This document shows positions 17,873 through 18,701 of a stretch of DNA of 60,652 bases, piece after piece. Position 1 is the stretch's first letter. Each line of letters opens with the position of its first letter. Source of the DNA: an uncultured Eubacterium sp. (GTDB taxonomy: Bacteria > Bacillota > Clostridia > Lachnospirales > Lachnospiraceae); the NCBI GenBank assembly GCA_947385775.1, contig CANDMI010000014.1, forward strand, positions 1 to 60,652, written 5' to 3'. The notes under the pieces are model-generated. The model made no database searches and was not told where the DNA came from. It saw nothing but the letters and a program-made list of their open reading frames with translations. Both the position numbers and the translations under genes were made by a program.

Positions 17873-17961
17873 CGCTGTATTGCGATTGTATGATAATGCG
17901 GGCAGAGGGATTTTGTTAAGCCGGACGATGGTTGCGTGGTTTGAAATATTTGCAGATAGGC

Positions 17962-18205
17962 GGACGCTGGGAGAGGGGATTTGCGCGGTCTGCCTGGCGC
18001 AATTCCAGAATGTAAGAAGTTCTAGGTATTCTGCATTTACGTTTCACAGACGGACGGACGCGGCCCCTAGTTCGCCTCTGGCTGCGCCAGAAGCTAAAGG
18101 AGCCGCTTACGGCTGCGCCGCCTGGTTGTGAGCAGAATACGAAGAACTTCTAAACATTCTTGCATACGCGCCATGCAGACCGTGCAAATCCCCTCTCCCG
18201 GCTGG
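17962..18205 (+). repeat. structured element copy A (~244 nt, long imperfect hairpin)
   Basis: The ends pair: 17971-17993 with 18175-18197 is a 23-nt stem with one G-U. An inner stem pairs 18007-18023 with 18143-18160. A further match is GGTATTCTGC near 18025 with GCAGAATAC near 18132. The centre (about 18050-18125) is a GC-rich multi-hairpin core with GGACGCGGCCCC, GGCTGCGCC and GGAGCCGCTTACGGC. Copy B on the opposite strand has the same order and core but different stem sequences. The region 17873-18788 holds no convincing gene; short frames here do not look like protein. Confidence 0.8.
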
Positions 18206-18287
18206 CAGTCGAAAGCGTTACAGAAAATGTTTGTACGTAAATTCAATTGTTAATAGTCGAGCTATTTTAAGTAAAACATTACGAAAT

Positions 18288-18534
18288 CCAGCCGGGTGAT
18301 GGGGAGCGGGGCTGGCTTTCGGCGACGTATGGAAGAATGCTAGAAGCCCTTAGCATTCTGCTTGAAAACCAGGCGGCGAAGCCGTAAGCGGCTCCTTTAG
18401 CCACTGGCGTAAGCCGGGGGCGGACTGGGGGCCGCGTCCGTCCGGCTGTGATTCCTATACGCAGGATGCTTAGAGCTTCTTGCATTCTGGAATTGAAGCC
18501 GGAAGCCAGCCCCGCCCCCCATCGCCCAGCGTCC
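18288..18534 (-). repeat. structured element copy B (~247 nt), inverted relative to copy A
   Basis: Read on the minus strand it aligns end to end with copy A: GGACGCTGGG at the start, AATTCCAGAATG, AGACGG/AGCCGG then ACGGACGCGGCCCC, GCTAAAGGAGCCGCTTACGG, GCCGCCTGGTT, and CCCGGCTGG at the end. The outer stem pairs 18295-18323 with 18498-18526 (29 nt). Its sequence differs from the copy A stem, yet pairing is kept. The inner stem around AGAATGCAAGAAGC is also kept. The two copies are 82 bases apart and lie between the purine operon and ridA. Confidence 0.8.
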
Positions 18535-18701
18535 GGAATCGAAATAAAACTCCATTTAACGAAACTGCCACAAGCAAAGCATAGATAAAGAAAAATATAG
18601 TTACAAAAAGAAAATTATTTGCTATACTGTCCATAAATATGAAAACCAATATATTTACATCATAAGATTCAAACAATTACAAATAATCAAAATATTCAAC
18701 A

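Follow-up and report, generated by a model that had tools for sequence, protein, structure and literature searches.

A probably old and mobile pair of inverted hairpins related to the TwoAYGGAY candidate RNA in an uncultured Eubacterium

The hairpins described here have their nearest named counterpart in TwoAYGGAY (Rfam RF01731, type Cis-reg), and the relevant passages of three papers present it as a probable RNA of the human gut, gamma-Proteobacteria and Clostridiales, marked as not cis-regulatory in a 2010 survey (PMC2864571), as a family improved by R-scape (PMC11701678) and as a possible CsrA-binding RNA (PMC4333381). Those same passages do not treat it as mobile, and literature searches combining MITEs with Lachnospiraceae and IS66, or MITEs with structured RNA and 'Clostridi', gave no match. 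On the side of mobile DNA, the described system that bears on this locus is ISDge4, a member of the ISBst12 group of IS66, for which the ends GTGACTACTCAGCA and GTAACTGCTCAGCA and an 8-nt direct repeat are given in the part of the source that deals with it (PMC12898284).

The window (the whole stretch of DNA analysed, 60 652 nucleotides from an uncultured Eubacterium sp. of the Lachnospiraceae) carries the element in the gap between a ferredoxin-like gene and a Rid gene. Upstream lie genes for SsnA, YgfK, a dihydropyrimidinase-like protein, a selenium-dependent xanthine dehydrogenase and the ferredoxin-like protein, and downstream the Rid, MocA-like and YqeC genes, so that the earlier note describes the position correctly when it says that the element separates a purine operon from its cofactor genes. 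The two inverted hairpins of about 245 nt that had been proposed from inspection of the letters were borne out by profile matches that place their feet at 17962-18205 (copy A) and 18288-18534 (copy B), and a repeat search of the window returned the outer stems and the inner stem where that inspection had put them. The features are as follows.

17962..18205, plus strand (outer to inner): hairpin A, profile match, outer foot GGACGC and inner foot GGCTGG
18288..18534, minus strand (outer to inner): hairpin B, profile match, inverted copy of A
18206..18287: AT-rich spacer between the inner feet
18001..18166, minus strand: TwoAYGGAY-like core of A, RF01731 42.6 bits (gathering score 43), our own model R1 166.8 bits
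18328..18494, plus strand: TwoAYGGAY-like core of B, RF01731 45.0 bits (gathering score 43), R1 163.3 bits
17966..18000 (5' arm, plus) with 18168..18202 (3' arm, plus): outer stem of A, 35 nt, 91% complementary
18291..18323 (5' arm, plus) with 18498..18530 (3' arm, plus): outer stem of B, 33 nt, 88% complementary
18015-18034 with 18132-18151: inner stem of A, 20 nt, 90% complementary
17924..17961, plus strand: expected left end of the whole unit, judging from four better-kept copies in which a motif lies 37-38 nt outside the foot
18535..18572, minus strand: expected right end of the whole unit, judging from better-kept copies

When A was aligned globally with reversed B, 199 of the 256 columns were identical (77.7%), and the two copies form each other's inverted repeat over two stretches, of 99 nt (78%) and 43 nt (93%). 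The folding energies as RNA are −147.9 kcal/mol for A (minus strand, z −14.4) and −152.3 kcal/mol for B (plus strand, z −10.2), and in neither case did any of 200 shuffled sequences fold as well. The spacer (18206..18287) gave no promoter-like site, and the end motif of the better-kept copies is not recognisable at either expected end (17924..17961, 18535..18572). The window element is probably an old copy of its repeat family.

The earlier note had recognised no named class. A class can now be named, in that the window element is, by its sequence, a diverged relative of TwoAYGGAY, although not a member of it. In a permissive Rfam scan RF01731 matched B at 45.0 and A at 42.6 bits, either side of the gathering score of 43; the default scan at the gathering threshold, run on the whole window, listed neither. 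(That 18328-18494 lies above the gathering score in one scan and is absent from the other illustrates that fast filters can hide matches.) A profile made from 31 TwoAYGGAY-type copies matches both hairpins over their full length (A with E 8e-14, B with 3e-16). In the other direction, model R1, for which the cores of 36 window-family copies were used, reaches up to 81 bits against TwoAYGGAY loci, and wherever matches to the two strands were listed the TwoAYGGAY strand scored higher; by both the profile and R1 the stems of the two families are thus homologous on the same strand. What is absent is the feature from which TwoAYGGAY takes its name: AYGGAY loops occur neither in the window-family consensus nor in the 36-copy alignment, and the core loops differ from those of TwoAYGGAY, which is why the element is filed as a relative. 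The CsrA-binding feature, ANGGA motifs in hairpin loops, was likewise not present in the window-family alignment.

Genuine TwoAYGGAY is present in the same genome, with 31 RF01731 matches of up to 116.1 bits, and several of these copies are pairs with the same anatomy, that is, a CGGACGC outer foot, a GGCTG inner foot and a facing order. Among 20 TwoAYGGAY loci from other genera, five hold two matches in the same paired arrangement. RF01731 was matched in 8 of 41 related genomes (3 of 29 genera) and in none of 14 control genomes, and across the order in 26 of 344 genomes, 24 of them over the cut-off, with seven candidates scored per genome.

The window family is highly repeated in its own genome (3.98 Mb in 152 contigs). 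With A as query, blastn gave 53 raw matches, which after merging represent at least 36 places, 33 of them of 150 nt or more; 40 of the 73 candidates were scored. Several contigs of the assembly (C27, C31, C44 and C104, among others) end at or near TwoAYGGAY copies, as expected of repeats that break an assembly, and for this reason the copy numbers are lower bounds. In the genome most window-family copies are arranged in facing pairs. An alignment of the arms of the window pair and of 11 other pairs separated two types, A and B, with distinct stems, and by best hit an A-type arm is joined to a B-type arm in every one of the 11 other inverted pairs (summing two hits per arm leaves 10 of 11, the exception being one arm of L015). 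This constancy indicates that A, spacer and B are copied as a whole unit, in which the spacer varies from 75 to 942 nt across the 12 pairs.

A profile search of all collected loci gave 325 distinct copies or fragments, 265 nearest to the window family and 60 nearest to TwoAYGGAY. Of 63 adjacent near-full-length pairs, 59 face inwards, three lie head to tail and one faces outwards. Among the 125 full copies for which 1500 nt or more of sequence on the inner side was available, an inverted mate was present there in 97 and absent in 28; as the loci were chosen because they hold copies, these counts describe copies rather than genomes. No transposase was found in the spacer of any unit examined. 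Genes do lie between facing arms, at L024:1573-2199 a transglutaminase-like ORF (PF01841) and at L106:2217-3521 an ORF that matches nothing in Pfam, and by this spacer ORF content both loci were rejected as autonomous copies with a transposase between the arms. Two pair units from another genus (L195 and L196, G356) have long spacers of about 0.9-1 kb that resemble each other, with no gene noted. In three hairpins of relatives (L325:4059-4465, L248:772-1169 and L263:3667-4088) different palindromic insertions occupy the same spot near the tip, at CTAG; one of these begins AGAGCGTGTTTGAAAAAT, which is present in other loci too.

The search of related genomes for copies, which the earlier note had suggested, found the window family by blastn in 10 of 61 genomes, all of them congeners, of which 13 were searched; some weak blastn matches in relatives (G001, for example) are TwoAYGGAY-type copies. 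A pattern scan of named genomes gave at least 116 stretches; those listed (80) all belong to six assemblies that carry the title Eubacterium sp. or Eubacteriaceae bacterium. Across the order R1 matched only the window's own genome among 344, which is a weak negative for the others since eight candidates were scored per genome and this was the sole member of the genus in the sample. The plasmid and phage collections gave no blastn match to 17950-18545, and viral contigs gave none with a strict pattern that also misses the relatives' loci and so says little. In one congener (G012) the same gene junction exists without the element: the order xanthine dehydrogenase, ferredoxin-like, Rid is kept (identities 89, 67 and 80%), the gap between the last two genes is about 155 nt as against 916 nt in the window, and no profile match was obtained there even at E 10. 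The intergenic sequence of G012 is too diverged for a convincing alignment that would define the insertion point or a precise empty site.

The position between two operons would suit a bidirectional transcription terminator or insulator selected at this place, and so, at first sight, would the finding that copies lie closer to the 3' ends of genes (median 68.5 nt) than to the 5' ends (161.5 nt). This asymmetry is however accounted for by avoidance of promoters. Furthermore, the 31 pair units with a nearby gene at each end divide into 20 tandem, six convergent and five divergent contexts, as compared with 366, 61 and 59 of 486 in the background, so that there is no convergent excess to speak of (6/31 vs 61/486) and no clear bias of gene orientation, and only one terminator-like site was found where 1.0 was expected, lying within a hairpin. 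We regard a terminator or insulator role as highly improbable. As the contexts of the other copies resemble the background, the position of the window element between operons is probably incidental, and the gene context fits scattered insertion at a distance from promoters better than a role specific to this locus.

The earlier note had described the element as having the pattern of an RNA under selection or of a mobile palindrome in DNA, and had asked whether base-paired change extends beyond the two copies in the window. Both halves of that alternative stood in part. The element is repeated and probably mobile (at least 36 places, facing pairs, a congener without it), and its covariation is RNA-like. 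Two copies are too few to judge covariation, but 36 establish it: 19 of the 40 pairs show change on both sides (92 cells) and 97.1% of cells are paired. The covariation score of 0.232 compares with a shuffled mean of 0.122, and none of 500 shuffles, which ignore relatedness, was as high on any of five measures; structures slid along the alignment scored at most 0.077.

Covariation of this kind has two possible sources, because compensatory changes in a palindrome can also be yielded without selection, by template switching. A pure DNA palindrome of the REP/BIME type, moved by a Y1 (RAYT) transposase, would acquire its covariation by template switching between the arms in replication. We therefore compared G-U with A-C cells on the TwoAYGGAY strand, using pairs called in both folding directions and ignoring kinship. 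In the window family (53 copies) G-U exceeds A-C in 22 pairs as against nine with the reverse (p 0.03), and in the TwoAYGGAY-type set (32 copies) in 34 as against 11 (p 0.0008). When the union of the pairs is taken, the two cell counts come close to each other (120 vs 106 and 90 vs 87, respectively). Unpaired columns of the window family lean the opposite way (59 C-to-T cells in 18 columns, 145 G-to-A in 29), while those of the TwoAYGGAY set have a slight lean per column in the same direction (34 C-to-T cells in nine columns, 48 G-to-A in 18). Taken together, the bias of G-U over A-C gives moderate support to a constraint on the hairpins at the level of RNA. The roughly 2:1 excess on pairs called in both directions argues against a DNA palindrome alone, as does the length of the hairpins (about 245 nt, far above that of REPs, which measure 20-40 nt). 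Inverted pairs of long hairpins and the general lack of target-site duplications described below do fit a Y1-type mechanism, but the end motifs resemble those of a DDE transposon, and on balance we think a pure DNA palindrome rather unlikely.

If the constraint is on RNA, the hairpins might instead be a functional host RNA that acts in cis as a regulator or as a small RNA, for instance a CsrA-binding sponge, with their repetition being secondary. The covariation over 36 copies and the G-U bias on one strand are what such an RNA would give, and the Rfam type Cis-reg and the proposed binding of TwoAYGGAY to CsrA (in the passage of PMC4333381 concerned) point the same way. Set against this, copies are present by the dozen, and their gene contexts are mixed and resemble the background (20/6/5 of 31, as above); the window family lacks the AYGGAY loops that the CsrA idea depends on; and TwoAYGGAY is marked as not cis-regulatory in the relevant part of the 2010 survey (PMC2864571). 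A host function as the primary explanation therefore seems unlikely to us.

Evidence on how the units may move comes from their ends. Genuine TwoAYGGAY units in the window genome are bounded by repeats starting GTTACTTTTCA, and the best-kept window-family ends (in L006, L021, L045 and L055) read GTAACnGTTCAGATAAG, 37-38 nt outside both feet. The end motif was found in 18 of 114 flanks as against 2.2% of shuffled flanks; it is present on both sides in four of 45 window-family units (always at a distance of 37 or 38 nt from the foot) and in one of 10 TwoAYGGAY pairs, and is absent from 37 of the 45 window-family pairs. A 2314-bp element in a related genome (G005, locus L143) has GTTACTTTTCACACCCACGCCAG at both ends and, by eye, a 7-bp direct repeat. 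Its GTTACTTTTCAC ends match those of the hairpin units, and it carries an IS66-family ORF of 575 aa (PF03050 43 bits, cut-off 23.1; NF033517 120.5 bits, below the cut-off of 180). A remnant with the same end is present in the window genome, and a 42%-identical relative of the element in G018 has the ends GTTACTGTTCAG. It is the likeness of the unit ends to these elements and to ISDge4 that leads us to name an ISBst12-like transposase. In the window genome itself PF03050 has no match, as compared with 91 in the congener G004 (6.7 Mb); L143 was a weak hit in this search.

Target-site duplications are not the rule around the pair units. They were found at one of 55 pair units, which is the chance level (mean 1.1 with flanks exchanged), and at none of the five units with end motifs on both sides; among five hairpin units with GTTACTTTTCA-type ends an 8-bp duplication flanks one of TwoAYGGAY type (L186) and is lacking at L085, L188, L194 and L026. 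A structured element of 145 bp with GTTAC...GTAAC ends has an 8-bp flanking duplication at all three of its places in the window genome (L166:1368-1512, L181:1144-1288 and L191:1368-1512), and a 49-bp element with such ends has none. By eye, an 8-bp duplication also flanks a short palindrome in L112 and a nested element with GTTACAGTTCA-type ends that sits in a hairpin arm near the tip (L306:2836-3246). The missing duplications around pair units could reflect age together with recombination between copies, or another mechanism.

The reading that we favour, and consider reasonably probable, is that the window element is a non-autonomous, MITE-like element made of a pair of RNA-like hairpins, related to TwoAYGGAY and mobilised by an IS66-type transposase; that it is mobile in origin is very probable. 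A unit would comprise a short end, hairpin A of about 245 nt, a variable spacer, the inverted hairpin B of about 245 nt and a second short end. Judging from the similarity of the ends and the remnants in the window genome, such units may have been moved in trans by an IS66-family, ISBst12-like transposase, and the hairpins are presumably maintained, or once were, as RNA that is transcribed from the spacer out through each arm, the direction of the TwoAYGGAY strand. More tentatively, TwoAYGGAY and its loop-less sister family might be the paired RNA arms of a superfamily of mobile elements in Lachnospiraceae and similar bacteria, with each unit sending a structured RNA from its spacer out past its two ends, and that RNA controlling, guiding or shielding transposition or sparing neighbouring genes; we offer this as a possibility well short of an even chance. 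TwoAYGGAY has been a described candidate RNA since 2010, its function unexplained, and in the window genome it also forms the arms of repeated, probably mobile DNA. If its copies are arms of mobile units, the search for a function should shift from host regulation to the biology of mobile elements, and the dozens of diverged copies per genome offer a natural set for asking how an RNA-like structure survives spread as DNA.

Of the described systems, TwoAYGGAY resembles the window element in strand, in the outer and middle stems, in the end-to-end profile match and in the paired inverted arrangement seen in the window genome, and differs in that the window copies score 45.0 and 42.6 bits where genuine members reach 116.1 and have core loops without AYGGAY. 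REP/BIME sequences with RAYT transposases are likewise palindromic units in inverted pairs, intergenic and present in many copies, but at 20-40 nt they contrast with about 245 nt per hairpin here. With MITEs that have IS66-family (ISBst12-like) ends the element shares the lack of any coding capacity of its own and the high copy number, and its better-kept copies have terminal inverted repeats that resemble such ends, whereas the 8-bp duplications seen at the 145-bp elements are not the rule at the hairpin-pair units.
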